From an uncultured Flavobacteriaceae bacterium (GTDB taxonomy: Bacteria; Bacteroidota; Bacteroidia; Flavobacteriales; Flavobacteriaceae): a stretch of 64,000 bases of DNA. The stretch spans positions 1 to 64,000 of the forward strand of contig CALIJE010000020.1 of NCBI GenBank assembly GCA_938017825.1, written 5' to 3'. Below the pieces are notes generated by a model, which was not told the DNA's origin, did no database searches, and worked only from the letters and a program-made list of their open reading frames with translations. Within the stretch, counting starts at the first letter, position 1, and each line of letters opens with the position of its first letter. This document shows positions 1 through 51,100 of the stretch, piece after piece. Position numbers and translations under genes: made by a program.

Positions 1-1
1 G

Positions 2-2254
2 GGGGACAACTACGACCTGGGGCCCGTGTCACAGGAACTGCACGGGGGGACCTACCTGTTCATATCGGAACAGGGATGCTCCACCACACTCACTCTGAAC
101 GTTCAGGACCCCGCCGATGGATGTTTCAACTTCTTGGAAAATGAAAATCCGTTGTTTCCCTTAGAACGGGGTACCGTTGTTGCAGGAATCGACGGTGTTA
201 ACGGCATTTCCTCGGACACGAACGGCTCGCCCTGTGCCCTTGAACTGGTGCAGAACGATGCCGGGCAGCCCTTTGCACGCTACCGCATCACGATCGATAT
301 CGCGGAAAACGGCCTGGCGCCGGGCGACGAGCTGTTCCTGAGCCTTGATGGCAAGGGCATAACGGGCACCGCACGTATCGAGGTGGCGGTCGACGATGCG
401 CCGAACACCTCATTGTCGAGCCATAGCTTCACAAGCGATTGGGGGACCCATAGCGCGACGATAACGGTACCGACCGGTGCCGCCACGCTCGACCTCTGGC
501 TGTTCCCGAACTACAATGGTGCGACGGCCGGCACTTCCTTGTTCGACAATCTAATTGTGGAACACATTGACAATACGCCGACCGCGGTGATCGATGCGAC
601 GGTCTTACAAGGGGAGGTTCCCCTGACGGTCGATTTCACGGGCAGCGGCTCTACCGATAATATTGGCATCACGGGCTACCAGTGGGACTTCGGAGGTACA
701 GGAAGTTCAACCGACGCCGACCCGACATTTACATTTAACTCTACAGGCACCTATGACGTTACCTTGACCGTAACCGATATAGACGGGAATACCGATACCG
801 CCATGGTACAGATCATTGTAGATCCAGTTGACTGTAATACACTTGGATTGGAAACAGAATATAGCATCAATAATTCCGGAACATCCATAACAGGACAATC
901 CCAGGTTACAGTAGAAGAAGGAAATTCTATTCTTTTAAGCATAATTCCCGATGGAATTCCTTTTTCCATATCATCTACTTCAACGAATGGCAATTCAAAA
1001 CCACTGGATACCAGCGACCTAGACTTAGCAAACCTCGATGAAGATGATCAAGGATTATATACATTTACAACAGACACAGGATGCCAAGTAACGCTTCAGT
1101 TAGATGTAAACTCCGCTTCCAATGAATGTACTCTATTAAATTTGGTGCCAGAATATTATCTAAATAATGGCCCTATACAGTTGGCAAGCAACGGTGAAAC
1201 GCTAACCGTCGATTACGGTGACAGTATTCGCCTAAGTGCTTTGCCGTTCGTAAATAACGGAACAGATGTTCCTGTTACCGTAACCCTTCCTGACGGTAGT
1301 GTACAAGCTGATAATTATGAAATCGCATCTTTAAGTCTGGCCGACAACGGCAATTATATTTTTACCTCCGAAAACAATTGTATTGCAAACGTAATACTTG
1401 ATGTAAATATCTGCAATGCTCTTGAACTGACTCCGGAAATAAATATAAATGGCAATGGCTTCAATGCGACTGCCAACGATGAAACCTTAACCTTGGAAAC
1501 AGGTGATACGATTGTTTTATCCGCTACCCCTGAATTATTCGATGGAGCTGCGGTAACACTAACAGGCATCACTTTACCCGATGGCAGTATACAAACGGAC
1601 AATTACGAAATTGTATCACTGGCAACGACCGACTCCGGAGCCTATTTGTTTACGACCGATACTGGCTGTACCGCAACCTTAAATTTGAGTGTCAATGAAC
1701 CAGTTCAATGTACCAACAATAGCGTTACCCCTGAATACACCATAAACGATCAAACGACTCAGAGCGGGGGAAGTTCGGTTCTATTGACCGTCGGCACTAA
1801 GGTCGTTTTAGGAATTGTGCAAGACGAGGAATTTACCATTACCCTACCAAGTGGAGAAGAAATTGCAAATGAATACACCATTGACAGTATACAAATGAAT
1901 CAAGCTGGTATCTATAATTTTACAACTGCGCAAGGATGCACCACCAGCTTTAATATAAGTGTTAATGAAGACCTAGTAATTTCCCCGTTGAAAGATTTGA
2001 TTGTTTATCCAAATCCAGTTCGGGACGGTATACTCCATTTTGGACTTGAAACTTATATGAATCAAGAATTAAGAGTTCAGGTGACCGATATTTATGGAAA
2101 AAACATAATTCAGAAGACCTTCCCTTCAGATCATCAAGCTGAGGAAGTTATTGATCTAAGCATGCTAAGTGAGGGTACATATATTGTTTTGATCACTAGA
2201 AATATTGACAACCAAATTACATATAAGAAGGTTATTAAATTGAGCGGTTCTTAA
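2..2254 (+). CDS. Secreted Ig-like/PKD multidomain protein with T9SS sorting domain (5' end missing)
   Basis: The reading frame is open from base 2, so the gene starts before the window; the GTG at 26 lies inside a domain and is not the start. In order: the tail of an Ig-like repeat (to about 115), a beta-sandwich, carbohydrate-binding-like segment (about 120-570), a PKD domain (about 575-830), four Ig-like repeats of roughly 95 residues (about 830-1970), and a C-terminal domain of about 85 residues with the YPNPV opening typical of type IX secretion type A sorting domains. The repeats share a pattern of LPDG, DNYE, D-G-Y-F and GC. It is expected to be exported through the T9SS and attached to the cell surface, perhaps as an adhesin or polysaccharide-binding protein. 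No catalytic domain is visible in the part present. Bases up to about 720 are much richer in GC than the remainder. Confidence 0.85.
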   Translation, partial: GDNYDLGPVSQELHGGTYLFISEQGCSTTLTLNVQDPADGCFNFLENENPLFPLERGTVVAGIDGVNGISSDTNGSPCALELVQNDAGQPFARYRITIDIAENGLAPGDELFLSLDGKGITGTARIEVAVDDAPNTSLSSHSFTSDWGTHSATITVPTGAATLDLWLFPNYNGATAGTSLFDNLIVEHIDNTPTAVIDATVLQGEVPLTVDFTGSGSTDNIGITGYQWDFGGTGSSTDADPTFTFNSTGTYDVTLTVTDIDGNTDTAMVQIIVDPVDCNTLGLETEYSINNSGTSITGQSQVTVEEGNSILLSIIPDGIPFSISSTSTNGNSKPLDTSDLDLANLDEDDQGLYTFTTDTGCQVTLQLDVNSASNECTLLNLVPEYYLNNGPIQLASNGETLTVDYGDSIRLSALPFVNNGTDVPVTVTLPDGSVQADNYEIASLSLADNGNYIFTSENNCIANVILDVNICNALELTPEININGNGFNATANDETLTLETGDTIVLSATPELFDGAAVTLTGITLPDGSIQTDNYEIVSLATTDSGAYLFTTDTGCTATLNLSVNEPVQCTNNSVTPEYTINDQTTQSGGSSVLLTVGTKVVLGIVQDEEFTITLPSGEEIANEYTIDSIQMNQAGIYNFTTAQGCTTSFNISVNEDLVISPLKDLIVYPNPVRDGILHFGLETYMNQELRVQVTDIYGKNIIQKTFPSDHQAEEVIDLSMLSEGTYIVLITRNIDNQITYKKVIKLSGS

Positions 2255-2336
2255 TACTATAAATGGTGCAAAATATATTTTGGGTACCACCGTTTTTTAA
2301 AATAACATATTGATATTTGCTTTAAATTAAGATACG

Positions 2337-3374
2337 GTGAAAATTTTAGTTACTGGTGCTGCAGGATTTATAGGATTTCATGTCGCCAAAAGATTATTGG
2401 AAGCCAATCACGAAGTAGTTGGCCTGGACAATATCAATGATTACTACGATGTTGGTCTCAAATATGCGCGCCTAAATGAACTTGGAATCGACCAAAAAGA
2501 TGCCGAGGTATTTGATTCACCATGTCAAAGTTCCATATTTGTTGGCAAATTTAAATTCGTTCGTTCGGCTTTAGAAAATCGGGAATTTCTTCCTACGCTA
2601 TTCCAAAAAGAAAAATTTGATGTTGTTTGCAATTTGGCTGCTCAGGCCGGTGTGCGCTATAGCCTCGAAAACCCAGAGGCCTATATTGATAGCAATATTG
2701 TTGGCTTTTTGAACATTTTAGAATGTTGCAGACATCATGAAATTAAACACCTGGTGTATGCAAGTAGTTCGAGTGTATATGGGCTTAATGAAAAAATACC
2801 CTTTGAAACAACCGATTCTGTAGATCATCCCGTGAGTTTATACGCGGCCTCAAAAAAGAGCAATGAGCTGATGGCGCATACCTATAGTCACTTGTTTGGT
2901 GTACCTACCACGGGGTTGCGATTTTTCACAGTATACGGACCTTGGGGGAGGCCAGATATGGCCATGTTTCTATTTACCGAGGCCATTCTAAAAGGGGAGC
3001 CTATTAAGGTCTTCAACAATGGAGATATGGAACGTGACTTTACCTACATTGATGACATCGTAGAAGGGGTTGTCAGAATAATTGAAAAAGTAAAACCTGT
3101 ATCTAAACGATTAGATTACAGCGTCTACAACATTGGCAATAACCAATCAGTGAAACTTATGCGATTTATTGAAGCTATTGAGCATAAACTCGGTACAAAG
3201 GCCAAGAAAAACCTGTTGCCCATGCAGCCAGGAGATGTACGCAGAACTTGGGCCAACGTTGAAGGACTAATAAAAGACTACGGCTACCAGCCGAATACGC
3301 CAATTGAAGAAGGAATTAGCGCCTTCATTGATTGGTATCAAAAATACTATGAAAGCGATAGCCAAACTACCTAA
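2337..3374 (+). CDS. NAD-dependent epimerase, UDP-glucuronate 4-epimerase (CapI-like)
   Basis: Extended short-chain dehydrogenase predicted to convert UDP-glucuronate to UDP-galacturonate in the cytoplasm. Visible features are the NAD-binding glycine motif TGAAGFIG at residues 6-13, SSSSVYG at 143-149, and the catalytic Tyr169/Lys173 pair (YAASK). The N-terminal DNINDYYD segment is characteristic of the CapI/LspL group. At 345 residues it is close to family length. The start is GTG, placed because the glycine motif follows at once, as in relatives. It opens a block of four sugar-nucleotide genes, and the UDP-glucose dehydrogenase two genes downstream would supply its substrate. Only 82 bases separate it from the surface-protein gene upstream. 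The substrate is inferred from family resemblance and context. Confidence 0.88.
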   Translation: MKILVTGAAGFIGFHVAKRLLEANHEVVGLDNINDYYDVGLKYARLNELGIDQKDAEVFDSPCQSSIFVGKFKFVRSALENREFLPTLFQKEKFDVVCNLAAQAGVRYSLENPEAYIDSNIVGFLNILECCRHHEIKHLVYASSSSVYGLNEKIPFETTDSVDHPVSLYAASKKSNELMAHTYSHLFGVPTTGLRFFTVYGPWGRPDMAMFLFTEAILKGEPIKVFNNGDMERDFTYIDDIVEGVVRIIEKVKPVSKRLDYSVYNIGNNQSVKLMRFIEAIEHKLGTKAKKNLLPMQPGDVRRTWANVEGLIKDYGYQPNTPIEEGISAFIDWYQKYYESDSQTT

Positions 3375-3438
3375 TTCACCCGACGTATTTCTTCGCTACC
3401 TATTTTGTCGAAAATTAAGCACGGCATGACAAGCATTG

Positions 3439-3470
3439 TTGGCTATTTAGGTTTCTTTTACCCATCTTTG
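3439..3470 (+). promoter_or_regulatory. Candidate Bacteroidota-type promoter for the sugar-nucleotide genes
   Basis: TTG at 3439-3441 is followed after 21 bases by CATCTTTG at 3463-3470, one mismatch from the TAnnTTTG -7 element. It ends 19 bases before the ATG at 3490. It could drive the 3490-7112 genes independently of the upstream epimerase. Confidence 0.45.
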
Positions 3471-3489
3471 CACCTCAAATTATATATGT

Positions 3490-4491
3490 ATGAATTTATC
3501 TAATTTAAAGCTTGATTCTACCTACCGCATTCTAGTAACAGGAGGCGCTGGTTTTATAGGATCTAATCTATGTGAATCGCTTCTAAATAATGGTAATGTA
3601 GTCGTATGTCTCGATAACTTTGCAACGGGTAAAAAAGAAAATATAGCGCATCTATTCGAAAAAGAAAATTTCATTTTTCATGAAGGTGATATTCGAAATC
3701 TCGAAGATTGTGCCACGGCCTGTAAAGATGTAGACTATGTTTTGCATCAAGCAGCTTTGGGTTCGGTACCTAGATCTATTAACGATCCAATAACCAGCAA
3801 TTCGGTAAATGTCTCAGGTTTTTTAAATATGCTTGTGGCCTCTAGAGATGCAGGGGTAAAACGTTTCGTTTATGCAGCAAGTTCATCGACCTATGGCGAC
3901 TCGGAGAAACTGCCTAAAGTTGAAGATGTCATCGGTAAACCTCTTTCTCCATATGCCATTACCAAGTATGTAAATGAGCTATATGCGGATATATTCAGTA
4001 AAACATATGGTCTTGAGACCATAGGTCTTCGCTATTTCAATGTATATGGGAGAAAACAGGACCCAAATGGGGCTTACGCTGCGGTGATACCAAAATTTGT
4101 AATGCAATTTATGCGCCACGAATCTCCGGTAATCAATGGTGACGGAACTTATTCCCGAGACTTCACGTATATAGACAATGTTATTCAAATGAACGTCAGA
4201 GCTCTAATTACGCATAATAAAGATGCTATCAACACCGTTTACAATGTGGCATGTGGGGAGCGAACCAATTTAAATCAACTTGCCAATTTATTAAAAGAAT
4301 ATTTGGGAGAATTCGACCAAAAGATAAACACCGTGGAAATAAGCTATGGTCCTAACAGATTGGGCGATGTTCCACACTCGTTGGCTTCTGTTGAAAAAGC
4401 TGAAAAATTATTGGGTTACAAACCTGAAATTGATATTCAAACCGGACTAAAGGAAGCTGTTTCCTGGTACTGGGAAAATTTAGAAAAGTAA
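3490..4491 (+). CDS. SDR epimerase, UDP-N-acetylglucosamine 4-epimerase (WbpP/TviC-like)
   Basis: Extended SDR enzyme predicted to interconvert UDP-GlcNAc and UDP-GalNAc, or the corresponding uronic acids as TviC does. It has GGAGFIG at residues 18-24, the SSSTYGDS segment, and the catalytic pair Tyr155/Lys159 (YAITK). The KVEDVIGKPLSPYA stretch and the DNVIQMN segment near the C-terminal third are typical of the WbpP/TviC group. Length (333 residues) is normal. It lies 3 bases before ugd, suggesting translation from one transcript, and the TviB-like dehydrogenase follows ugd. That pairing recalls the TviB/TviC and WbpO/WbpP pathways to N-acetylgalactosaminuronic acid. The exact substrate is inferred. 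Confidence 0.85.
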   Translation: MNLSNLKLDSTYRILVTGGAGFIGSNLCESLLNNGNVVVCLDNFATGKKENIAHLFEKENFIFHEGDIRNLEDCATACKDVDYVLHQAALGSVPRSINDPITSNSVNVSGFLNMLVASRDAGVKRFVYAASSSTYGDSEKLPKVEDVIGKPLSPYAITKYVNELYADIFSKTYGLETIGLRYFNVYGRKQDPNGAYAAVIPKFVMQFMRHESPVINGDGTYSRDFTYIDNVIQMNVRALITHNKDAINTVYNVACGERTNLNQLANLLKEYLGEFDQKINTVEISYGPNRLGDVPHSLASVEKAEKLLGYKPEIDIQTGLKEAVSWYWENLEK

Positions 4492-4494
4492 AAG

Positions 4495-5823
4495 ATGAAT
4501 TTAACAGTTATAGGAACTGGTTATGTAGGTTTAGTTAGTGGAACATGTTTTGCAGAAATGGGAAATACCGTGACCTGTATTGATGTTGACACGAAGAAAA
4601 TCGAAAATCTTAAAAATGGGATCATACCCATTTATGAACCTGGTCTTGAGGCCATGGTAGAGCGAAATGTAAATAATAGAACCTTGCGTTTCAGCACCAA
4701 GTTATCCGAAAATTTAGAAAAGTGTGATATCGCCTTCATAGCAGTTGGTACACCAATGGGCGATGACGGTTCTGCTGATTTACAGTATGTGCTACAAGTT
4801 GCCAAGGAAATCGGTGAAAACATGACGCATTCCTTAATTATAGTTGATAAATCAACGGTACCAGTAGGAACGGCCGATAAAGTGCGAGCGACGATAAAAA
4901 AAGAACTCGAAAAAAGAGATTTGAACATAGGTTTTGATGTGGTATCGAATCCAGAATTCTTGAAGGAAGGCGATGCAATCAATGATTTTATGAAACCTGA
5001 TCGGGTTGTGGTGGGTTCAGATAATGAAGAAGCTACCGATAAGATGAGAGCTCTGTATTCTCCATTTTTTAGAAGTAGTGTGGAACGATTGATTACTATG
5101 GATGTGCGCTCGGCTGAAATGACAAAGTATGTCGCCAATGCCATGCTTGCGACCAAAATTTCGTTCATGAACGAAATTGCCAACATTTGCGAATTGGTTG
5201 GGGCTGATGTAAACAAGGTTCGCGTTGGAATCGGCTCTGATAGCAGAATCGGATACAGCTTTATATATCCCGGCAGCGGTTATGGTGGATCGTGTTTTCC
5301 CAAAGATGTAAAGGCATTGAAGAAAACCGCTGAAGAACATGGTTATACTGCCAAATTGATCACCTCTGTCGAAGAGGTGAACAACAAACAAAAATTCGTT
5401 ATCGCCAATAAAGTAATTCAGCGATTTGGCGAAGATTTAAAAGGCAAAACGTTTGCCGTTTGGGGTCTCGCTTTTAAGCCGGAAACCGATGATATGCGTG
5501 AAGCACCTGCGATATATATAATTAAGGAGTTGACAAAAAGAGGAGCCAAAATCAATGCCTATGATCCTAAGGCAATGGAAGAAGCACAGCATTATTATTT
5601 AAAAGATGAAGAAAATGTGAGTTACTTCAATTCGAAATACGAGACCTTAAAGGGTGCAGAAGCCATGATCTTGTTGACAGAATGGAAAGAATTCAGATCA
5701 CCGGATTTTGAAGAACTAAAGGTTCAACTCAACCATCCTATCATCTTTGATGGACGAAATCAATACAATCACGAGCGTATGCTCGAAAAAGGATTTGAAT
5801 ACTTTCAAATCGGAAAAAAATAA
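4495..5823 (+). CDS. ugd: UDP-glucose 6-dehydrogenase
   Basis: Oxidises UDP-glucose to UDP-glucuronate with two NAD+ in the cytoplasm. The Rossmann motif GTGYVG is at residues 7-12, and the catalytic cysteine lies in YGGSCFPKD at Cys267. The three family domains (N-terminal NAD-binding, central helical, C-terminal UDP-binding with the FDGRN segment) are all present within 442 residues. It sits between the WbpP-like epimerase (3 bases upstream) and the second dehydrogenase (5 bases downstream), so co-transcription is very likely. Its product can be used directly as UDP-GlcA, or epimerised to UDP-GalA by the CapI-like enzyme at 2337. Confidence 0.95.
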   Translation: MNLTVIGTGYVGLVSGTCFAEMGNTVTCIDVDTKKIENLKNGIIPIYEPGLEAMVERNVNNRTLRFSTKLSENLEKCDIAFIAVGTPMGDDGSADLQYVLQVAKEIGENMTHSLIIVDKSTVPVGTADKVRATIKKELEKRDLNIGFDVVSNPEFLKEGDAINDFMKPDRVVVGSDNEEATDKMRALYSPFFRSSVERLITMDVRSAEMTKYVANAMLATKISFMNEIANICELVGADVNKVRVGIGSDSRIGYSFIYPGSGYGGSCFPKDVKALKKTAEEHGYTAKLITSVEEVNNKQKFVIANKVIQRFGEDLKGKTFAVWGLAFKPETDDMREAPAIYIIKELTKRGAKINAYDPKAMEEAQHYYLKDEENVSYFNSKYETLKGAEAMILLTEWKEFRSPDFEELKVQLNHPIIFDGRNQYNHERMLEKGFEYFQIGKK

Positions 5824-5828
5824 AGAAT

Positions 5829-7112
5829 ATGCCCAATAATAAGATTGCAGTAATAGGTCTAGGATATGTAGGTCTGCCCTTGGCACACCTTTTTGCCGCT
5901 AAATACCCTGTTATCGGTTTTGATATTAACGAAAATAGAATCCAAGAATTAAACAAAGGAATCGACAGTACCCTAGAGGTAGACAATGATAAATTAAAGG
6001 CAAGGATTTCGTCATCTTCAGATATGACCAAAGGACTTTATTGTTCTAATGACATTCAAGACCTCAAGGATTGCAATTACTATATCATTACAGTGCCCAC
6101 GCCGGTAGACAGTAGTAACCGCCCTAACCTCACCCCTCTTTATAAAGCAAGTGAAACCGTTGGTAAGGTTTTGAAAAAAGGAGATATCGTTATTTATGAA
6201 TCCACAGTTTATCCTGGGGCTACAGAGGAAGATTGCGTTCCCGTACTTGAAAAAATAAGTGGACTAAAATTCAATGTTGACTTTTATGCTGGATATTCTC
6301 CTGAGCGTATAAACCCTGGGGATAAAGAGCATACTGTAGATAAAATACTAAAGGTTACCTCGGGATCAACGCCTGAAATAGGACAAGAAATAGATGCATT
6401 GTATAAATCTGTTATTACTGCAGGCACCTATTTGGCTTCTTCGATCAAAGTAGCAGAAGCGGCGAAGGTCATAGAAAATTCACAAAGAGATATCAATATT
6501 GCATTCGTAAACGAGTTGTCCAAAATATTCAACCTAATGGATATAGATACACAGGAGGTTTTGAAAGCAGCCGGAACCAAGTGGAATTTCTTGCCGTTTA
6601 GGCCAGGTCTCGTTGGAGGACATTGTATAGGGGTTGACCCATATTATCTTGTTCAAAAAGCACAAGAGTATGGTTACCATCCTGAAATAATTCTTGCAGG
6701 TAGACGAATGAACGATGGTATGGGGCAACATGTATCCTCAGAAGTGATTAAGTTAATGGTCGCGAACAATAACAGGGTCAATGGAGCCAACATTTTAGTA
6801 CTAGGAATTACGTTTAAAGAGAATTGCCCTGATGTACGGAATACAAAAGTGGTAGATGTCGTGGAAAACCTAAAAGGTTTTAGTACTAATGTTTGTGTTT
6901 ATGACCCATGGGCCAACCCCGAGGAAGTGCACAAGGAATACGGTTTCAGTACCACAAAAGAAATACCACGCGATGTTAAGTTCGATGCTATAGTACTGGC
7001 AGTCGCACACAAAGAATTTTTAGATATTTCCCTAAGAGATTTGCTCAACCCTAATGGGATTATCTATGACGTAAAAGGTATTTTGGAGGAAAAAGTAGAA
7101 GGTAGACTCTAA
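5829..7112 (+). CDS. UDP-N-acetylhexosamine 6-dehydrogenase (TviB/WbpO-like)
   Basis: Nucleotide sugar dehydrogenase of the Vi-antigen TviB/WbpA/WbpO branch, predicted to oxidise UDP-GalNAc or UDP-GlcNAc to the uronic acid. It has GLGYVGLP at residues 10-17, the YESTVYPG segment, and the catalytic cysteine in VGGHCIGVDPYY (Cys266). This motif separates it from the Ugd branch, whose cysteine sits in GGSCFPKD. At 427 residues it is full length. The WbpP/TviC-like epimerase in the same operon favours UDP-GalNAcA as the end product, but the choice of epimer cannot be read from the sequence. It ends 23 bases from the convergent deacetylase. Confidence 0.9.
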   Translation: MPNNKIAVIGLGYVGLPLAHLFAAKYPVIGFDINENRIQELNKGIDSTLEVDNDKLKARISSSSDMTKGLYCSNDIQDLKDCNYYIITVPTPVDSSNRPNLTPLYKASETVGKVLKKGDIVIYESTVYPGATEEDCVPVLEKISGLKFNVDFYAGYSPERINPGDKEHTVDKILKVTSGSTPEIGQEIDALYKSVITAGTYLASSIKVAEAAKVIENSQRDINIAFVNELSKIFNLMDIDTQEVLKAAGTKWNFLPFRPGLVGGHCIGVDPYYLVQKAQEYGYHPEIILAGRRMNDGMGQHVSSEVIKLMVANNNRVNGANILVLGITFKENCPDVRNTKVVDVVENLKGFSTNVCVYDPWANPEEVHKEYGFSTTKEIPRDVKFDAIVLAVAHKEFLDISLRDLLNPNGIIYDVKGILEEKVEGRL

Positions 7113-7135
7113 TTTCAAGAAGGCTGTTTTGGGCT

Positions 7136-8053
7136 TCAGTCCATAGAAGACGGACAGTAATTAGATAAAAGACTTGCCTTCTTAGAGGCATTTGCGATAA
7201 AATACATGGTATGCCTAAGGGGCCATGCGCAAATTACTTGATCTCTTCTCACAAGTAATTGATTCTTTTCAATTTCACTCCCATCGCTAATGTGGCAACC
7301 CCTTTCACCGGTAGAGCAAGATGTGTACCCTGCTTCAAAGACTAAGTCGAAGGCCTTCTTGTTAAAATCGAAAAAACGACCATAGGGGTAAGCAAAATGG
7401 GATATCGCATCACAATGCTTTTCCAAGATTTCTTTTGAAGTATGCAAATCATCTTGCAATTCGCTCACGGTCATGTGAGCAACATTCTTATGGTTCATTG
7501 TATGAGAACCAATTTCATGTCCCCATTTTTGAAGTTGCTCAACCTCTTCCCAATCCACAAATTCGACAGCGGGCATTTTTAGGCGTTCATTACAAAATCC
7601 AGTTATCCATTCCCGGTCATTAGTTCCAATACTATCAGGGTTAACAAAAAAACAGGCTTTGGCATCGAAACGATTTAATATTTTGGCAGCGACCAAATTA
7701 TTTTTAAAGCCGTCATCGGAGCTCCAAGAAATATATGGTCTGTCTATATTTCCTTTCAAAATTCTATTTACGGCCTCAGAATGCGAAATAAATGTGTGGT
7801 CTTTGGACAACTCCTGTAATAACGCCTCGAAATTTGCGGCCTCATCATTAAAAACGTGATGAATAAATAGAAATTGAATTCTAGGTTTTCTATACCATTC
7901 ATCAACTCCCATTATTCTGTTCTGAAGAGACAACATGTCCAAGGCATATTTTCTGGCAATGTCTCTGAGGGAAATTCCCTGATATTTTTGTACAGCACTA
8001 AAGTCGTCGGTGAAGATCAAGTTGGTTCTTAAGTTTGGGGTTAAAATTAGCAA
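7136..8053 (-). CDS. Polysaccharide deacetylase family protein (NodB homology)
   Basis: Carbohydrate esterase 4-like protein of 305 residues. The NodB metal-site motifs are recognisable: SSDDG at 111-115 (usually TFDDG), the HTMNH zinc histidines at 184-188, and the YPYG motif at 222-225. No signal peptide or membrane segment is seen at the N-terminus, so it may act in the cytoplasm, for instance on a sugar nucleotide or lipid-linked intermediate, rather than on exported polymer. The first 100 residues form a family-variable region. The gene is reversed relative to the surrounding polysaccharide genes and ends tail-to-tail with the UDP-HexNAc dehydrogenase. Deacetylation of a HexNAc in the polymer is an inference from context. 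Confidence 0.78.
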   Translation of the reverse strand: MLILTPNLRTNLIFTDDFSAVQKYQGISLRDIARKYALDMLSLQNRIMGVDEWYRKPRIQFLFIHHVFNDEAANFEALLQELSKDHTFISHSEAVNRILKGNIDRPYISWSSDDGFKNNLVAAKILNRFDAKACFFVNPDSIGTNDREWITGFCNERLKMPAVEFVDWEEVEQLQKWGHEIGSHTMNHKNVAHMTVSELQDDLHTSKEILEKHCDAISHFAYPYGRFFDFNKKAFDLVFEAGYTSCSTGERGCHISDGSEIEKNQLLVRRDQVICAWPLRHTMYFIANASKKASLLSNYCPSSMD

Positions 8054-8388
8054 TTAAATTATTCTTGAACCGATTTACTGCTTTTTCAAGATAGGTATTG
8101 CCAAAAAATATACTGATTTAGTGCAGATTAGAAGTACTAAATTGATTGCTTTTGGAGTTATATGTTAAAAAAAAATGCATTTCATCGAATATATTGGTAG
8201 TTAAAAATCTTTTTTGGGAAAATGTAGCGTACTTACAACCATTATTTAAGTGAAATTGGTAGTTCGTCGAAAAGTGGATGGTGATTCATCGAAAAAATTA
8301 GTTTAAGATAAAAAATATTGAAAATAATGTTCAAATTTGGATTCCCAAAACTTACACACTTAAATCTTAACCTAATATAGATTCCCTT
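8054..8388. promoter_or_regulatory. Divergent AT-rich intergenic region with three TTCRTCGAA motifs
   Basis: This 335-base gap separates two divergent genes and should hold promoters for both. TTCATCGAA occurs at 8181-8189 and 8285-8293, and TTCGTCGAA, a near-perfect palindrome, at 8263-8271. The string ATTGGTAGTT occurs twice, around 8193 and 8255. A weak -7-like CAAATTTG lies at 8332-8339 without a well-spaced TTG. No coding potential is visible. Confidence 0.4.
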
Positions 8389-10779
8389 ATGGTCCCTTCT
8401 TTACACGTCAGTAAATTGACTTTACTTCTTTTTGTTTTCACCTGCCTTTTTTCCTGTAGCAAGGATTCAGATTTATTAGAGGAATACGCCTTGTACGACG
8501 AACCCTTTAATGAGCCAATTCAAATTAGGGATGATCTATTTAAGACAGACGGTGGTGGCAGTATCATTTTAGATGTACTTTCCAATGACTCCTTTCCAGA
8601 CAGCACCAAGGTGACCATTAAGAATATATCCAGTCCCAGTCACGGAACTGTTCAAATTAGAGAGGATAATACAATTGTTTATACGCCAATGGGTACTGGA
8701 ACGGAAACCTCTCCCCCATCTGCCGATGGCTCATCGAGTACTCAGACGAGTGAAAGTAGCACTACAACGAGCACTGAAGGAAATTCGGATTCTTCGACTA
8801 ATTCAAATACCGATGAGGAGTCGACAACAACTAGCGAAGAATCAACAACAACTAGCGAAGAATCAACGACCACAAGTGAAGAAACAACGACCACTACCGA
8901 AGAAAATAGCGGTACTAATGAAACCGATACTAGTGGCGATGCATCAACTTCTGAGAATTCAGGTTCTGAAAATTCCGAATCAGACGAAGCTAGTTCAACT
9001 TCAGAGGATGCAGCAGTGCAATCAGATACCTTTACCTATACTACGGAAACCGAAAATGAAGATGGTTCCACAACAACGGAAGAAGGCACCGTTACTATAG
9101 AATTTGAAGTGGAAGAAAGCACTGCAGAAGAAGCTGCAACTACGGAGGAGTCTACTGCCACTGAAGAAGCTGGTTGTACCCCTGAACAAATTATTCCCGA
9201 ATACAGATTGAATGGTGTATGGTCTAGTGGAGAAAATGACCTAACCGTGAGCCATGGTACGGCAGTTGCTTTTAGTATGCTGCCCAATGATATTGGTGTT
9301 ACGATTCAGCTGCCCGATGGCACCACTGTGAGCGACAATCATGATTTAGGCCCTGTGTCAACTGACCATAGCGGTGCGTATCTACTTACTTCTGCCGAAG
9401 GTTGTCAAACAACCATTAATTTGACCGTTGAAGAAGCGCCCGCCGAAGTTGCCGAAGAACCACAATATAATGACATCGCCGATAATGCAAGATTTGTCGC
9501 AACTTATGGCAACTCTTCAAATGACGGACTGTCAGAAAATCAACCTTGGAGCATTGAGCATGCATTTAATGTAGCGCAGGCCGGGCAGACCATATATATC
9601 AAAGCAGGTAATTATGGTAACCAACAGATTCTATTAAGAGGAAGTGGTTCGTATGGCAATCCTATTGTATTTAAAGGATATAAATCGGTTCCAGAGGATA
9701 TCCAATCCCAAAATGGATCTACCTTCGAATATGGTGATCAAATTAGCGCCTCTGAAATGCCCTTATTGGAAGGGATTGTAACTAACGGTGCAGCTCAAGG
9801 CTGGGCGTTTGAACTTCGCGGTAGCAACCTTGAATTTCATAACATCCAATTTAGAAAATATGCGAGAGCAATCATGTCCGATGGTGATAACAACCTCTTT
9901 AAGAATATGATCGTCGATGATATAGGAAAAGATGCTCAAAGTTCTTTGTATTCAGGAATTGGATTACGAATTTCAGGAAATAACAACAAGGTAACCGATT
10001 CCTTTGTCAAAAATGCAGGCGGAGAAGGTATCACCTTTAATGATTGTGACAACTGCGTGTTATCGTATAGCGCTGTATATTCTGATGATGTCAGCAACCC
10101 AACTGATTACTATATCTTACTTACGGGGGGCACCGAGAATACAGTTGTACAATACTGTACGGTCAACAGGAAAACCAAGTTAACACATGGAGGTCACGGT
10201 CTCACTGGAAAAAACGGAGCGTACAATAATCAGTTCCTAAATTCAACCGCAATCAACACCAGCATCGAATTATCTTATGGAAATGTGTACAACAATCTCA
10301 TTAAGAATTGTGCAGTTCAATCGATGTTCACACAAAATGGAGATGTCTTTGGTACCATTGATGTTGCGAACGGCGCACACCATAATACATTTGAAAATGT
10401 TACTGTAGATGGTGCTTGGGGCGCTGTGAACTTTAAGGATTGGAACGAATCTAACGCTGCTGATGAACAAAATGCCGGACATGATAATGAATTTATCAAT
10501 GTAACCGTTACCAATAGTATAAATGCAATTCATTTTAATGAATACCAAAGAACCGAAGGTACAGCCGACAACAACATTTTTAGAAATTGTACCTTCAAAG
10601 ACGTATCTAAAGTATTTCAAGTAAACAGACCTAACTCAGGTACACAGCTCATTAATTGTAAGGTAGAAAATGTACCAGTGCTTTGGCGTACCTCTAGTGG
10701 ATACAACTATTCTCTAAATTCGAATACAGTTTTTCAAAATATGACCTGGATTAATATTGGATTTCAGGCACCTAATTAG
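8389..10779 (+). CDS. Surface lipoprotein: Ser/Thr/Glu stalk, Ig-like domain, right-handed beta-helix
   Basis: A 796-residue protein with a lipoprotein signal (hydrophobic residues 10-22, lipobox LFSC with Cys23). Residues about 45-105 form an Ig/cadherin-like domain (LDVLSNDSF, GTVQI, TYTP-type pattern). Residues about 105-262 are a low-complexity stalk of Ser, Thr and Glu containing 7-residue repeats. Residues about 263-350 are an Ig-like repeat of the same family as those in the protein at 2-2254. The remainder, from about 360, is a right-handed parallel beta-helix with a DGLSENQPW opening and repeated N-N-F/N-V-V turns, as in polysaccharide lyases and C5-epimerases. A role in binding, cutting or modifying the exported polymer at the outer surface is inferred; no catalytic residues were assigned. 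A strong terminator follows. Confidence 0.8.
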   Translation: MVPSLHVSKLTLLLFVFTCLFSCSKDSDLLEEYALYDEPFNEPIQIRDDLFKTDGGGSIILDVLSNDSFPDSTKVTIKNISSPSHGTVQIREDNTIVYTPMGTGTETSPPSADGSSSTQTSESSTTTSTEGNSDSSTNSNTDEESTTTSEESTTTSEESTTTSEETTTTTEENSGTNETDTSGDASTSENSGSENSESDEASSTSEDAAVQSDTFTYTTETENEDGSTTTEEGTVTIEFEVEESTAEEAATTEESTATEEAGCTPEQIIPEYRLNGVWSSGENDLTVSHGTAVAFSMLPNDIGVTIQLPDGTTVSDNHDLGPVSTDHSGAYLLTSAEGCQTTINLTVEEAPAEVAEEPQYNDIADNARFVATYGNSSNDGLSENQPWSIEHAFNVAQAGQTIYIKAGNYGNQQILLRGSGSYGNPIVFKGYKSVPEDIQSQNGSTFEYGDQISASEMPLLEGIVTNGAAQGWAFELRGSNLEFHNIQFRKYARAIMSDGDNNLFKNMIVDDIGKDAQSSLYSGIGLRISGNNNKVTDSFVKNAGGEGITFNDCDNCVLSYSAVYSDDVSNPTDYYILLTGGTENTVVQYCTVNRKTKLTHGGHGLTGKNGAYNNQFLNSTAINTSIELSYGNVYNNLIKNCAVQSMFTQNGDVFGTIDVANGAHHNTFENVTVDGAWGAVNFKDWNESNAADEQNAGHDNEFINVTVTNSINAIHFNEYQRTEGTADNNIFRNCTFKDVSKVFQVNRPNSGTQLINCKVENVPVLWRTSSGYNYSLNSNTVFQNMTWINIGFQAPN
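8818..8901 (+). repeat. 21-bp tandem repeat, four copies, coding ESTTTSE heptads
   Basis: Four consecutive 21-base units (8818-8838, 8839-8859, 8860-8880, 8881-8901) encode the heptad ESTTTSE and close variants within the stalk of the beta-helix lipoprotein. The first two units are nearly identical at the DNA level and the last two have drifted, as expected from in-frame duplication. Confidence 0.85.
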
Positions 10780-11109: not shown

Positions 11110-12225
11110 ATGAGCAAAGTTGCATTGATTACAGGAGTTACCGGACAAGACGGGGCTTATTTGAGTGAATTTTTATTAAAGAAAGGATACATTGTTCATG
11201 GTCTTAAAAGAAGATCATCTTTATTCAATACAGATCGTATCGATCACCTTTACCAAGATCCACACGTAGAACACAGAAATTTTATTCTACATTATGGTGA
11301 TATGACCGATAGTACGAATTTAATTCGTCTAATTCAGGAAATTCAACCAGATGAAATCTACAATTTAGCCGCTATGAGCCACGTTCATGTGTCTTTTGAA
11401 GTTCCTGAATATACAGGCAATGCAGATGGATTAGGTACACTAAGAATTTTGGATGCGGTTAGATTACTTGGACTGAATGACAAGACAAGGATTTACCAAG
11501 CATCTACCTCAGAATTATATGGGAAGGTACAAGAGGTACCGCAGAGCGAAACAACACCTTTTTATCCCAGAAGTCCGTATGCTGTTGCAAAAATGTACGC
11601 CTATTGGATTACGGTCAACTATCGCGAGGCCTATGGTATGTATGCCTGTAATGGTATTTTGTTCAATCATGAATCCCCAATTCGTGGCGAAACTTTTGTT
11701 ACAAGAAAAATTACCCGGGCCACGGCAAGAATTGCATTGGGCCTACAAGACAAAATGTATTTAGGAAATCTTGATGCTCAACGAGATTGGGGCCATGCAA
11801 AAGACTATGTACGTATGATGTGGATGATCCTTCAGGCAGATGAAGCTGAAGATTGGGTCATCGCAACAGGTAAGACCACCCCGGTACGTGAGTTTGTGCG
11901 TATGAGTTTTAGCGAGGTTGGTATTGAATTGGAGTTCAAAGGAAAGGGTGTAGATGAAAAGGCTTTCGTAAAATCTTGTTCAAATCCTGATTATCAAATA
12001 GAAATCGGAAAAGAAATTTTAGCAGTAGATCCGAAATACTTTAGGCCTACAGAAGTAGAATTGCTTATAGGCGATGCTTCAAAGGCAAATAACAAACTAG
12101 GTTGGATTCCTGAGTTCGAATTAAAAGATTTGGTAAAGGACATGATGCAGAGCGATGTAAAATTGATGAAGAAGGACCAATATCTTCAAAAAGGCGGTTA
12201 CCGTATCCTTAACTATTTTGAATAA
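11110..12225 (+). CDS. gmd: GDP-mannose 4,6-dehydratase
   Basis: Converts GDP-D-mannose to GDP-4-keto-6-deoxy-D-mannose, the first step towards GDP-L-fucose. The NADP-binding motif TGVTGQDG is at residues 8-15, the STSELYG segment is present, and the catalytic Tyr157/Lys161 lie in YAVAK. The conserved [17 protein letters not shown] region, specific to Gmd, is also visible. At 371 residues it is the usual length. The fcl gene starts 3 bases after the stop, so the two steps are encoded together. The long leader suggests it heads the transcript that includes the flippase and the first glycosyltransferases. Confidence 0.96.
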
Positions 12226-12228
12226 CTA

Positions 12229-13311
12229 ATGAATAAGAATTCAAAAATTTACGTTGCTGGTCATAGAGGGCTAGTAGGTAGTGCCATTGTTAAGAATTTA
12301 CAGGCCAAAGGCTATGAGAATATTATTTTTAGGACCCATGCTGAATTAGATTTGACCGACGCCAACGCAGTGGCAAGCTTTTTCGAGGCTGAAAAACCCG
12401 AATACGTATTTTTGGCTGCAGCCAAGGTTGGAGGAATTGTGGCGAACAACATTTACCGTGGCGATTTTATCTATGCCAATTTGATGATACAAAACAATGT
12501 TGTTCATCAAAGTTACTTGCACGGCGTTCAAAAACTTATGTTCCTGGGCAGTACCTGTATTTACCCTAAGAATTGTCCCCAGCCCATGAAAGAAGATTAT
12601 CTTCTCACTGATGTGTTGGAGTATACCAATGAACCTTATGCCATTGCCAAAATAGCGGGCATTAAGTTGTGCGAGAGTTACAATCTTCAATATGACACCA
12701 ATTTTATTTCTGTAATGCCAACCAATCTTTATGGCCCAAATGATAATTTTGATTTGGAAAAATCTCATGTTCTTCCGGCCTTAATCCGAAAAATCCACTT
12801 AGGAAAGGCATTGCAAAACGATGATTGGCAAAGTATCCAGAACGATTTGAACAAACTGCCCATCGAAGGAACTACCGGAGACGCCAGTAAAGAAGAAATT
12901 CTTGAAAAATTGACAAAATATGGTATTACTATTTCTAGCGAAGGTGATGTAAATGTTGAAATTTGGGGAAGCGGAAAACCAATGAGAGAATTTCTATGGT
13001 CAGAGGATATGGCAGATGCCTGTGTCTTTTTAATGGAAAACCGAGATTTCAAGGACACTTATGAAGGTACATCCGAGGTACGGAATACTCATATCAACAT
13101 TGGAACAGGGGTAGATATTTCAATTGCCGAACTGGCACAGCTAATAAAAAATGAAATTGGTTTCAAGGGCGGATTTATTTTTAATACCGAAAAACCAGAT
13201 GGAACACTCAAAAAACTTACTGATGTGACTAAACTGAACGCACTAGGCTGGAAACATGAAGTTTCGCTGGAAAATGGCGTTCAGCGGGTATATAACTGGT
13301 ATTTGTCATAA
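12229..13311 (+). CDS. fcl: GDP-L-fucose synthase (epimerase/reductase)
   Basis: Carries out 3,5-epimerisation and NADPH reduction of GDP-4-keto-6-deoxymannose to give GDP-L-fucose. It has GHRGLVGS at residues 11-18, the GSTCIYPK motif with the catalytic cysteine, and Tyr137/Lys141 in YAIAK. It is 360 residues long, with an insertion around residues 185-245 compared with the roughly 320-residue enterobacterial enzyme; such an insertion is common in Bacteroidota. The gene follows gmd after 3 bases. An alternative symbol is wcaG. Confidence 0.95.
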   Translation: MNKNSKIYVAGHRGLVGSAIVKNLQAKGYENIIFRTHAELDLTDANAVASFFEAEKPEYVFLAAAKVGGIVANNIYRGDFIYANLMIQNNVVHQSYLHGVQKLMFLGSTCIYPKNCPQPMKEDYLLTDVLEYTNEPYAIAKIAGIKLCESYNLQYDTNFISVMPTNLYGPNDNFDLEKSHVLPALIRKIHLGKALQNDDWQSIQNDLNKLPIEGTTGDASKEEILEKLTKYGITISSEGDVNVEIWGSGKPMREFLWSEDMADACVFLMENRDFKDTYEGTSEVRNTHINIGTGVDISIAELAQLIKNEIGFKGGFIFNTEKPDGTLKKLTDVTKLNALGWKHEVSLENGVQRVYNWYLS

Positions 13312-13390
13312 CACCATTTTTGAAGTTTCAAGTGTCATTTGAAGGCATCAAATGATGCATACTTGCTATTTCAAAAAAGCATAAAATCTA

Positions 13391-14833
13391 ATGGGCTTAG
13401 CGAACAAAATGTTCAGCGGAATGGTCTGGAGTGCACTCGAACGCATTTCGGTGCAATCGGTATCTTTTGTACTTACCATATTCTTGGCTCGACTATTAAC
13501 CCCAACGGAATATGGCACCGTTGCCCTACTCCTTGTATTTATAAGTTTTTCGCAGGTTTTTATTGATAGTGGCTTCAGCAAAGCATTGATTCAAAAACAA
13601 GATCGCACTTCCGAAGATATCTCTACGGTCTTTATTTTCAATATCCTAATTGCAGCGGTTTGTTATATTCTGCTTTGGTTCGGTGCGCCTTTTGTCGCCT
13701 CGTTCTATGAAGCACCACTTTTAGAAATCCTGCTTAAGGTATTATCTATATCATTGATTTTCAATTCTTTATATGCAATACCCTTAACTTTATACACCAT
13801 AAAACTCGATTTTAAGTCGATAGCTAGGGTCAATTTTATTGCAACGCTTTTAAGTGGGGTCGTAGCCATTTATTTGGCATTTGAAGGATTTGGTGCTTGG
13901 GCACTCGTTTGGCAGACCATCATAAAATCTGTCTTAACCGCAGTTCTCATGTGGTATAAATTAAGCTGGAAACCAAGTTGGGTTTTTTCGAAAAAATCAT
14001 TCAATAGTCTTTTTTCATTTGGCTCAAAACTTCTCATATCCTCACTATTGAATAAATTGGTAAACAACTTTTACGCCTTTTTCATTGCCAAAATGAGCAC
14101 CAGAGATTTAGGGTATTATGATAGGGGTACGCGATTCTCGGATATTTTTTATGCCACGATTAACGCTGTTTTCGAAAACGTGTTACTCCCTGGCTTGGCG
14201 ACTGTGCAAGACCAGAGGGATGTCCTGGTGGATCACACCCGTAGAATCATCAAAATGGCAGCCCTAATGATTACACCGTTGTTCTTTGGCCTTGCCGTAA
14301 TTGCAGAACCACTTATAAAGGTTCTAATTGGAGAAATATGGTTGCCAGCAGTGCCCATTATGCAATTAATATGCATTGCAAGACTCATTACGATAGTCTC
14401 GGGAATCAATATGAATCTGCTTTACGTACTTGGCCGCACAGACTTGGCCTTGAAACAACAATACCTAAAAATCACCGTTAGAGTTATACTCTTAATTTTG
14501 GCCTTGCCTTACGGCATCGTCTACATTGCTATGGCAGAATTGGTTTCGACAAGTATTCACTTTTTCATCAATACATATCATCCTGGAAAAATAATGCAAT
14601 ACGGGGCCGCAAATCAATTAAGCGATATGAAATCGATCTTTTTCGCGGGATTGGTTATGAGTATAGTAGGTTATTTTTCGATGTATTTGGTCTCAAACGA
14701 TATTCTAAAATTGGTTATTGCCATAACAAGTTCAGCCCTCACCTATTACGGATTGGTTGTACTCTTTAAAATAGAAGAAATGAATTTGTTGAAAAGTAAG
14801 CTAACGGGCCTCATAAGAGCTAAAAAAAAGTAG
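13391..14833 (+). CDS. Wzx-type polysaccharide flippase (MOP superfamily)
   Basis: Integral membrane protein of 480 residues with about 12-14 hydrophobic segments and the N-terminal pattern MVWSALERISVQ...FLARLLTPTEYG typical of the lipopolysaccharide biosynthesis/PST flippase family. It is predicted to turn undecaprenyl-linked repeat units across the inner membrane. It sits after fcl and before the glycosyltransferases, the usual context for Wzx. With the Wzy-like protein at 17941 it supports a Wzx/Wzy-dependent pathway. The symbol wzx is not assigned because substrate and pathway are inferred from family and context. Confidence 0.88.
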   Translation: MGLANKMFSGMVWSALERISVQSVSFVLTIFLARLLTPTEYGTVALLLVFISFSQVFIDSGFSKALIQKQDRTSEDISTVFIFNILIAAVCYILLWFGAPFVASFYEAPLLEILLKVLSISLIFNSLYAIPLTLYTIKLDFKSIARVNFIATLLSGVVAIYLAFEGFGAWALVWQTIIKSVLTAVLMWYKLSWKPSWVFSKKSFNSLFSFGSKLLISSLLNKLVNNFYAFFIAKMSTRDLGYYDRGTRFSDIFYATINAVFENVLLPGLATVQDQRDVLVDHTRRIIKMAALMITPLFFGLAVIAEPLIKVLIGEIWLPAVPIMQLICIARLITIVSGINMNLLYVLGRTDLALKQQYLKITVRVILLILALPYGIVYIAMAELVSTSIHFFINTYHPGKIMQYGAANQLSDMKSIFFAGLVMSIVGYFSMYLVSNDILKLVIAITSSALTYYGLVVLFKIEEMNLLKSKLTGLIRAKKK

Positions 14834-48143: not shown

Positions 48144-51100
48144 TTATAGCCCCTCTGGTTTGGGTCTAGGAAAAAATTTGATCAAGCTATCGTTGCCCAT
48201 GGCGGAATAAGGCGCGACTTTGGTCTCGGGTTTTTCTTCCAAAGCTTTTTCGCTCTTGCGAAATATCTTTTTGGTCAGTTCCTTAAAGGTATCGAAATCT
48301 ACCTCATAGGACAGACCCAAGCCTTGTGTAGTGCCTAAGCGATCGGCCAAAAATGTCTGAATCTCGCTTTCACGGCTAAAAAACTTGGCGCTAAGGGTAC
48401 CTTCCTCATTAAGTAAGACCTGTATTTCAAAATTACCCGCCACAACCGTTTCACTTGCCCCACCGACCGGCACCCCCACCTGGCCGTTAAATAGTACGCG
48501 ATCACTAATTTTCGTCGAAAGGGTTACTGCCACTCTATTTTCTGCCTGAGCATCCAATGTTTGACCTGGCTCAAGAGCAAGAGCGATATCGAACTTTTCA
48601 TTTCCAGAACTTAAAACCGAATTCAGAATTCCAGAGAAAGACTGTGCAATATTCCCAGTTAAGGCTCCCGCGGTCAATCCCTGTTGCTGCGTATTTACAA
48701 AAGACCCTTGTGCCAATAGAAATATTGCGTTTCGTTCCTTCACCGTTGGATCACTTAAACTGTACTCCAATTCAGATTTTACAATCGCGTTTGTATTTGG
48801 AAAATCAATATCAAATTCTATCCCAGGATTCTCAAGCTCTTCGGTGAGCTTGATAATTACATCCGTCGGTACCTTTCGATACGTACCATTATCGAGCAAA
48901 GGTGCCGGATTGGCGGATAAACTATATACCGCTTCAAGATTTAGAATGGCCCCGAGTGGGGGGCCGTCCCAGTTAATGGTTCCACCGGGTTCAACCCTAA
49001 AGTTCTTGTTTATCAAATTTCCAAATTTGAAGTTGTATTCCCCGGTTACGACTACAAATTCACCAAACATCTCGAAATCCCCTTTGGTGTTGATTCGAAT
49101 AAGCATGGGGCCTTCTCCCGTTCCTTTTAGCGTACTGCCCGTCTCTAGATCCGTTACGATCTGTACCTCGGCATCTTTGGTAATCGCTAGATCAAAATTC
49201 ATTTGCAGACCTTGAAATTCATCTAAAATACGGGGGGTACCCAGACTATCGATTTCGCTCTTATTTATAAAATTGATAAAGGAATAATCACCGACCGAGA
49301 CTACATCGCTCAACGGAATCTTCAAGGATGTACCCCTAGCGGTTTCCCCCTTTACATCTATATTCAATGCCTTGGTAGGGCCATGTATTCGGCCAGAGCC
49401 TTTTAAAAACCCCGAGCCATAGTATAAAACCTCATCTTCATACGGGGTATTCAAAATCAATAAACGATCGCCCCTAGTATCAACGTTCAAGTTTAGTCGC
49501 CAATCATCGAAAAAACTGTGGCTGATGGTACCGTCTAAGGTTGCCCTGGTATTTTCGTCTACATCAGTGATTGCTATTCGATCAAAATCAAAGGTCTGAT
49601 CAAAAAGGTTTACCCGCGAATTGGGCGCAAAACTGTAATCAACATTAAGATAAGGTATGCCCAAACCTGCATCGTCTAAAGTGAGGATACCATTGAAATT
49701 AGGATTATCAACTTCGCCACTAATAGTTGCACTACCACTCACAAAACCACGTATATTATCAATAACCCCTTCGCCCAAAGGGCTGAAAGGGGAAATATCG
49801 AAATCGTTCATATTAACCAGTAAATCTGCCGTCGGAATTTCTGCGGTATTATTGATTTTACCATAAATACCGACCTTCTCGATGCCGTTCTCTGTAATTT
49901 GGCTATTCACAGAAAACTCCGTGAGGTCTTTGTTGCCCACAATTCCGATTGCCATATCCCCGATTGCCATTTTATTGATCGAAAAGTCATCTATTTTTAA
50001 GTTCGATGAAGGCAGGTAAATACCATCTTTTTGATAAATGTTTAATACCCCGTTCACCTCTCCTTGCAACTTTAAACTATCAACGGCCGGGGTGATTTTA
50101 TCCAGGGAAACTATTTTGAATTCCAACTGCAGGTCTTTGTCGGTCGAATCTGCCAAGGACCCTCTTAACCTTATTTGTTCCTCCTTGTTGTTGTTCATGA
50201 CAATCTCCTGAATAGTGATGCTATCAAGGGTTCTGTTCACAATGACCTTATTCTTATTATTTCCATCCTTGTTTAAGACCCATTTGTTTCCTTTTATATC
50301 TATTTCCGACTTCTTGAGGCCTATAACCGACTTATTTTCAGCATTGAACGTATGGTAGAAATTGAGGTTGTATATATCATTATAGGTATTGCCTCCTGCA
50401 AATTCTGCCCTAAAGAATAGCGTGTCTTTGAGCTTCGTATTGATGATATTGAAATTCTTAACGTCGTAATACGGATTGGACAAATCGCCTACCGAAGCAA
50501 ACGTATTGAATAAGGGGTTTTTGTTATCAATGGTGACGTCTATATCATCGGCCTTGGAGCCAAAGGCCTCTATATATGGTGATTTGAAGGTCAGCTTAAA
50601 GTCCCCTTCGTCCGATCTAATTCGACCTTTTATAAACGTATTGGGATCAAATTTCACCTCAGGAAAAAAGACATCGACAATCTTGTTGTATATCTTGAAA
50701 TTAAAAGAAAGATTTTGGCCTGCTGAAATTTCGAAAGGCCGGTAATTTGTATAGATACTACCCAATGAATTCTGAACCAATCTACCCAATTCATTAACCT
50801 TGAAATTACCGCGTACAAAGCCTGTTATAATGTCTGGGGAATTAATGTTTATGGTGCGTACCGAATCGCTTTCGAAACTTGAAACAATTTCGAAGTCGTC
50901 AAAATAATAGGTGTCGTTCTTATTCTGAAAACTGGTCTTGGTAAATTTTATGTCGCCCTCTAGGTTATCGAGATTGTTCCCGGTGACATCCATATTTACA
51001 TCTCCTTTGAAAATGGAAATACTGTCGTTTATGAAATTAAGCTTCTTTAGATCGGCATACTCAACAGAAGCCACAAAATTAAAGTCGTTACGGTCGGCGC

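Follow-up and report, generated by a model that had tools for sequence, protein, structure and literature searches.

A truncated surface protein, in all likelihood the tail of a galactose oxidase, and a predicted beta-helix lipoprotein flank the uronic acid genes of a Flavobacteriaceae polysaccharide locus

Genes and features of the locus

The window analysed here is the opening 64 kb of C20, a 93-kb contig in the draft genome G000 of an uncultured Flavobacteriaceae bacterium (171 contigs, 87% complete). It opens with the C-terminal part of a protein bearing a type IX secretion system (T9SS) sorting tail, which is followed by sugar genes, a predicted surface lipoprotein, and the continuation of the locus (Table 1). 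The first-pass annotation described the T9SS and lipoprotein genes as bracketing the uronic acid genes, and this arrangement is confirmed: capI, tviC, ugd, and tviB lie between them, as does a polysaccharide deacetylase gene. The name capI is taken from that annotation, and no equivalog model exceeded its cut-off among the 25 matches listed for this gene; the name fcl for the epimerase gene 12229-13311 is presumed. Large open reading frames (ORFs) in the window region 41861-64000 include 48144-52598 and 58550-61708.

Table 1. Features of the polysaccharide locus, with coordinates in the window
Feature	Position	Strand	Evidence
T9SS-secreted protein, C-terminal 750 residues, cut by contig start	2-2254	+	Por_Secre_tail, PKD
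Partial Ig-like repeat of the T9SS protein, at assembly break	2-109 (matched copy 2-106)	+	Profile search
Jelly-roll domain, CBM4-like fold, about residues 41-189	122-568	+	1gui Z 8.9, rmsd 3.0, 114 aligned, residues 38-189 compared, low-confidence model
PKD domain	578-817	+	PF18911 E 8e-14
Four full tandem Ig-like repeats of the T9SS protein	833-1111, 1127-1408, 1412-1699, 1709-1969 (block 833-1969)	+	Profile search
T9SS C-terminal sorting domain	2003-2236	+	PF18962 E 1.3e-9, TIGR04183, both over cut-off
capI-like NAD-dependent epimerase, presumed UDP-glucuronate 4-epimerase	2337-3374	+	PF01370 E 2.5e-58
tviC-like UDP-N-acetylglucosaminuronate C4-epimerase	3490-4491	+	NF011728 388.7 bits, under cut-off 760
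ugd, UDP-glucose 6-dehydrogenase family	4495-5823	+	TIGR03026 over cut-off; best equivalog TuaD under its cut-off
tviB-like UDP-N-acetylglucosamine C6-dehydrogenase	5829-7112	+	NF011729 546.4 bits, cut-off 592
Polysaccharide deacetylase	7136-8053	-	PF01522 E 4.5e-18
Predicted surface lipoprotein (lipobox-like start, Big_9 domain, acidic linker of Ser/Thr/Glu, single Ig-like repeat, beta-helix)	8389-10779	+	
Big_9 domain of constant N-terminal anchor	8515-8709	+	PF17963 E 1.2e-6
Single Ig-like repeat of the lipoprotein	9175-9435	+	Profile search
Right-handed beta-helix	9478-10776	+	AlphaFold2; fold nearest mannuronan C5-epimerases and PL6 lyases
gmd, fcl-like epimerase, wzx-like flippase, locus continuation	11110-14833	+	GDP_Man_Dehyd, Polysacc_synt_3; PF01370 for 12229-13311

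The Ig-like repeat

The Ig-like repeat copies reported for this stretch are real: five in the T9SS protein, of which one is partial, and one in the lipoprotein. A profile made from the four full T9SS copies only recovers the lipoprotein copy with E 1e-17, against a best value of E 0.012 among 2000 shuffled lipoproteins; it detects the partial copy as well. When aligned, 17 copies from G000 show an invariant first cysteine, a G-x-Y corner (G67 and Y69 invariant), and a late cysteine. Scanned singly, none of these 17 copies exceeded the cut-off of a Pfam Ig family (best Ig match E 0.04), and two whole congener proteins do exceed such a cut-off (Ig_3 and V-set). Ig structures also match the modelled T9SS array, where model confidence is moderate.

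The partial copy and the lipoprotein copy had been singled out as the closest pair. This holds within the window (54% over 35 residues); among 193 copies, however, the nearest relative of the partial copy belongs to a GSDH protein on contig C9, and the lipoprotein copy comes second. The lipoprotein copy is itself nearest to copies on contig C171 (71%), rather than to those of the T9SS protein. Of the latter, copies B, C, and D best match one oxidase gene of G009 (49, 53, and 67%), and copy A best matches repeat genes on the capI side (60-65% for the best four).

In G000, 20 repeat matches at E 1.6e-7 or better are distributed over five ORFs: the two of the window, a 540-residue T9SS piece and a 1733-residue GSDH/beta-propeller protein that both lie on C9 by lon, and a 782-residue protein on C171 adjoining groEL. 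The genus total is 34 repeat ORFs across nine genomes, grouped by hand according to contig and reading frame. Nine of them are found within 10 kb of an NDP-sugar dehydrogenase gene (PF03721) and three at 15-33 kb. A further seven are more than 35 kb away on the same contig, and 15 lie on other contigs of draft genomes, for which distance is not measurable and which were counted as away. The binomial expectation would be 0.26 ORFs within 10 kb, against the nine observed, and 0.76 within 35 kb, against 12, although this test takes related ORFs as independent, which they are not. The repeat had previously been tied to polysaccharide loci; with 22 of the 34 ORFs elsewhere, including beside lon and groEL, it is largely scattered, and its use as a marker of such loci was rejected.

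Within the genus, the domain partners of the repeat include galactose oxidases, GSDH, metallophosphatase, cadherin-like arrays, and F5/8-type proteins. The idea of a genus-only family, suggested by its presence in 8 of 9 congeners and 0 of 50 others, was weakened by wider samples: the repeat turned up in 6 of 394 further genomes from the order (four of them weakly), and further copies occur in G517, G521, G537, G595, and G655, genomes outside the earlier samples. We read the repeat as an Ig-fold spacer that several surface proteins of this bacterium share and that has expanded in the genus and in certain relatives.

Two further settings of the repeat were observed. Single copies are found at L098, L099, L100, and L101 in proteins whose ends look, by eye, tail-fibre or S74-type chaperone-like, some of them sharing the jelly-roll domain of the window T9SS protein. 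In G236, an ORF with one copy (L092:7778-11461) that shares 54% identity with the C9 GSDH/propeller protein is found at the end of the polysaccharide locus; its congener relatives are located at lon.

The T9SS protein and the oxidase genes beside capI

The visible 750 residues of the T9SS protein, whose gene is cut at the contig start, show no Kelch domain or copper-radical site, and the jelly-roll domain has no Pfam match. A structure model from alignment A7 was weak, with a mean pLDDT of only 66.8; the whole-protein alignment A6, in which non-homologous parts were aligned, was left out. The Ig part of this model retrieved fragments of GhpA from Aureispira first (Z 9.0-11.5, with a large rmsd that presumably reflects different domain angles), tied with human KIT (Z 10.5).

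In eight of the nine repeat-bearing genomes (G000, G001, G002, G003, G004, G005, G007, and G008), a T9SS gene with the repeat lies just 5' of capI-tviC-ugd, in the case of G002 with the lipoprotein gene between the repeat gene and capI. The gene tviB comes next after ugd in six of these eight, and is not at that place in G003 and G007. In the ninth genome, G009, two repeat genes and the lipoprotein gene are located 15-33 kb from NDP-sugar dehydrogenases and adjoin wza- and wzc-type genes. Neither the repeat nor a PF03721 (ugd) gene was found in G006, the tenth genome of the genus.

The complete capI-side genes of G001, G005, and G008 encode Kelch repeats, a GO-like E-set, LamG, nine Ig copies, and a C-terminal T9SS tail. 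When its first 641 residues were searched, the G001 protein aligned with a galactose oxidase structure over residues 30-515 (E 8e-130), and the same oxidase motifs are found in G002 when the gene is read across two stretches. In G000, G003, G004, and G007 a contig end truncates the capI-side gene ahead of any oxidase domain, and the GO-like E-set was not found in G003, which is listed as 100% complete. Judging from its position, shared with complete oxidase genes of congeners, and from the matches of its repeat copies to oxidase and capI-side genes, the T9SS gene of the window very probably represents the 3' portion of a galactose oxidase gene. Site pairing can vary: the capI-side oxidase of G008 has sigma-factor genes upstream and groups with a gene that lies beside lon in G004 (100/99 support, about 0.09 summed branch length), and is therefore a chimera or the product of gene conversion.

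The missing 5' part may still be present in the assembly. Window positions 1-141 are identical to C9:1-141 and the first difference appears at base 142, so that the partial Ig copy at the window start marks an assembly break within near-identical paralogues; an exact overlap of 141 bases presumably reflects the word length of the assembler. Exactly 141 bp are also shared by the starts of contigs C15 and C32, whose first bases carry two galactose-oxidase 5' ends (about 60 matched residues each). Contig C32 continues with genes for a capD-type epimerase/dehydratase, a Poly_export (wza-type) protein, a Wzz/GNVR (wzc-type) protein, and a CpsB/CapC phosphatase. On C15, the genes are those of a sigma-70 factor and, presumably, its anti-sigma partner. 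Since these contigs show both kinds of site used by oxidase genes elsewhere, gene order suggests that C32 is likely joined to C20 and C15 to C9. The four contigs (L018, L021, L106, and L107) have pairwise identical starts inside repeat-rich oxidase genes, and this metagenome-assembled genome (MAG) therefore seems to be without the middle of two galactose oxidase genes. If so, surface genes rich in repeats can fragment assemblies, and oxidases of this kind would readily escape notice in MAGs.

The lipoprotein and its exchangeable parts

As read by eye, the predicted lipoprotein starts with a hydrophobic stretch followed by LFSCSKDSD, and this start is similar in nine lipoproteins. Its anchor, consisting of the lipobox-like start, Big_9, and the acidic linker, is 44-60% identical to those of eight congeners over 77-79 columns. 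The parts beyond the anchor differ between genomes. A beta-helix forms the C-terminal part in G000, G003, G004, G007, and G008, and what looks by eye like a pectate-lyase beta-helix does so in G002 and G009; the lipoproteins of G001 and G005 end in a different domain, with a GH127 match below the cut-off in G005 (E 0.001) and none in G001. A correspondence between the type of enzyme domain and the sugar genes was rejected, given that gmd/fcl accompany the beta-helix types and, in G001, the other type as well. In the stretches read, a polysaccharide deacetylase gene adjoins all five lipoprotein genes of the beta-helix type in the genus and none of the four of other types; it was not labelled at six beta-helix loci of other genera.

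The AlphaFold2 model of residues 256-796 is of high confidence (mean pLDDT 92.6). With VIA-align, the beta-helix matches AlgE6 (Z 33.0, rmsd 2.7, 322 residues), a PL6 lyase (Z 31.4), and the Vibrio cholerae matrix lyase RbmB (Z 27.4), but NosD (Z 30.7), phage tailspikes, and hydrolases are also among the structural matches, so that the shared fold is no proof of activity. Sequence searches with the beta-helix gave no Pfam family at E-values up to 1 and no relative in the PDB, and in the absence of a family profile match the lipoprotein is not filed as a member of the PL6 lyases or C5-epimerases. Residues Y574, Y575, R594, H600, H603, and E627 are invariant in a 13-row alignment of the beta-helix and are candidates for catalytic residues.

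Beyond the genus, relatives of the beta-helix are encoded at six loci, 37-40% identical at five of them and 29% at the sixth. In nine of ten loci the beta-helix genes are found among polysaccharide genes, and at the tenth, where identity is 29%, the nearest such genes are epimerase- and ugd-like ones at a distance of 3-4 kb. The relatives from other genera have PKD domains or an acidic linker at the place of the spacer, with PKD-like repeats in four proteins and four PKD stretches in the one scanned with Pfam. The Ig copy is present in the lipoproteins of only two of nine genus genomes, G000 and G009, and thus behaves as an exchangeable spacer. The proposed role of the repeat as the common link of the two surface proteins is not borne out by this distribution.

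Oxidase genes across the family

PF09118 is found in 17 of 397 sampled genomes of the family, and in 8 of 19 chosen genomes, seven of these eight belonging to this genus. The survey yielded 33 distinct hits, reduced to 30 ORFs by dropping those of G510, G572, and G704; two of the dropped hits match the oxidase over the last 200 residues only (30-34%) and one lacks a recognisable ORF. Five site patterns, FCPG, RGYQ, GGSW, RxYHS, and THxxNxxQR, whose residues we take to form the copper-radical site, occur together in 27 of the 30. The remaining three lack only RGYQ, which surrounds the cross-linked tyrosine, and are all lon-side genes (L149:7037-14488, L151:8258-14161, and L152:2-4186).

Half of the ORFs (15 of 30, from seven genera) are located beside capD-wza-wzc or capI, or one to two genes away. 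They comprise one each in G001, G002, G005, G008, G517, G595, and G537, and two each in G009, G655, G236, and G521. In G655, G236, and G521 the capD-wza-wzc group is flanked by two oxidase genes, and the capD-type gene of G236 and G521 is only 27-29% identical to that of G000. The link to PF03721 alone is weaker, with 3 of 22 oxidase hits outside the genus within 20 kb (in G517 and G655). Another 14 ORFs lie beside a sigma-factor group or lon, a second conserved home of these genes (L066, L070, L071, L093, L094, L095, L144, L145, L147, L149, L151, L152, L154, and L155), and one, in G364, is near rpsB. Mapping the capsule-side label onto the oxidase gene tree takes 5 changes; shuffled labels took 10.1 on average, and 1 of 500 shuffles was as low. 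That T9SS galactose oxidases accompany capsule-type export genes in seven genera is of more interest than the Ig repeat.

Proposed function and alternative explanations

The proposed function starts from what the analysis establishes, which is the domain anatomy, the gene order, the kinship of the T9SS part with galactose oxidase genes, and the fold class of the lipoprotein. The locus would produce an acidic polymer containing uronic acids through ugd, capI, tviB, and tviC. The T9SS protein would be the C-terminal stalk and sorting end of an AA5-type copper radical oxidase, with its 5' part on another contig, probably C32 beside capD-wza-wzc. Such an oxidase could turn primary hydroxyls of the exported polymer, for instance galactose C6, into aldehydes, releasing H2O2, and the aldehydes may cross-link the polymer. 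The lipoprotein, in turn, may display a uronan C5-epimerase or lyase of the beta-helix type on a constant anchor, epimerising or cutting uronate residues at the cell surface. In both proteins, Ig-fold spacers would hold the exposed enzyme domains away from the cell.

It seems somewhat probable, on balance, that the Ig spacers carry surface enzymes in this way, and that the galactose oxidase end and the C5-epimerase- or lyase-like lipoprotein modify the polymer of the locus. The joining of the T9SS part to an oxidase domain, the substrates, the reactions, and the action of both proteins on the same polymer are what we infer here. A broader version is tentative and has the smaller probability: in Flavobacteriaceae, a T9SS-secreted, Ig-stalked copper radical oxidase might be a dedicated maturation enzyme of Wza/Wzc-exported capsules, its aldehydes cross-linking the surface polymer, accompanied by an anchored lipoprotein in which enzyme domains of epimerase, lyase, or toroid type are exchanged to suit the polymer of each strain. 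Against the oxidase reading stands the fact that half of the 30 oxidase ORFs are away from polysaccharide genes.

The same genes could be explained in other ways. The two proteins might be non-enzymatic matrix adhesins that hold the capsule by binding the polymer through their Ig, PKD, and CBM4-like domains, and the visible T9SS part indeed contains only such domains and a sorting tail. This is improbable, considering that the full-length genes found at this position encode an oxidase with the site patterns, that the family of the lipoprotein beta-helix keeps invariant Tyr, Arg, His, and Glu residues, and that Ig copies occur in many proteins distant from polysaccharide genes. Of the earlier suggestion that a surface module may hold or shape the polymer, shaping by predicted enzymes on Ig spacers seems to fit better than holding. 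The module itself stands insofar as both genes belong to the locus, show polymer-acting features, and keep their order in the genus; its shared Ig repeat does not stand as the link.

This conserved order could also be plain inheritance within one genus, devoid of functional coupling, as congeners share much of the locus order and the binomial test counts related ORFs as independent. We consider this unlikely, because oxidase genes are found at capD-wza-wzc in six further genera, with varying orientation and number; the clustering of the site label on the gene tree points in the same direction, although shared descent alone could also produce it. Finally, the enzymes could act on foreign polysaccharide, such as that of algae, for feeding, and merely adjoin the capsule locus. 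LamG and F5/8 domains are common in degradative enzymes and are contained in these oxidases, which are also found away from capsule genes. Such a feeding role is nevertheless doubtful, given the position of the genes between export and sugar-nucleotide genes (for G000, as deduced from the contig pairing) and the presence of the beta-helix relatives at polysaccharide loci, weakly so in one of ten. Modification of the polymer of the locus is the reading preferred here. If true, it would provide a testable rule on how capsule loci bring along surface-modifying enzymes of their own.

Comparison with known systems

The open-licence literature returned nothing joining galactose oxidase with type IX secretion, Flavobacteria capsules, GlxA-exopolysaccharide, or kelch exopolysaccharide gene clusters. 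For galactose oxidase and wza the one match was a genome comparison of Vibrio vulnificus, and the Bacteroidetes matches, among those listed, were off-topic by their titles and the beginnings of their abstracts.

The Ig-like array resembles that of GhpA, the grappling-hook protein of Aureispira, a T9SS cargo used in predation. GhpA was the first structural match, tied with KIT, but is a different protein, and none of the 45 sequences matched by the repeat profile is a GhpA entry.

Polyuronates are the substrates of both mannuronan C5-epimerases and PL6 lyases. AlgE4, AlgE6, and PL6 lyases offer the folds nearest to the lipoprotein beta-helix (Z about 28-33), with 13-18% identity among the matches listed and no family HMM match. 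In V. cholerae, rbmB sits between the vps clusters. RbmB has been shown to be a secreted lyase that cuts the cell's own exopolysaccharide, VPS (PMC11637428). The likeness consists in a beta-helix enzyme fold; the difference is that RbmB is a secreted lyase and the protein described here a lipoprotein of predicted function.

The oxidase genes of the genus presumably belong to AA5. This label denotes the family of galactose oxidase-type copper radical oxidases (PMC11267884). The complete capI-side genes resemble its members, for instance that of Pseudoarthrobacter siccitolerans (9g43), in their Kelch propeller, E-set, and site patterns. They differ in adding a T9SS tail, LamG, and 9-14 Ig repeats, features of the relatives' genes and not seen together in the cut gene of the window, and in their location at capsule-type export genes. 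The closest functional parallel may be the GlxA-CslA system of Streptomyces, where a radical copper oxidase is coupled to the synthesis of an exported polysaccharide (PMC11022532). There, GlxA forms a complex with the cellulose synthase CslA, whereas the oxidases described here are T9SS cargo encoded beside the Wza/Wzc-type export genes of Gram-negatives. If the proposed function is true, the role of copper radical oxidases in surface glycans, as in GlxA of Streptomyces, would extend to capsule export in Bacteroidota.
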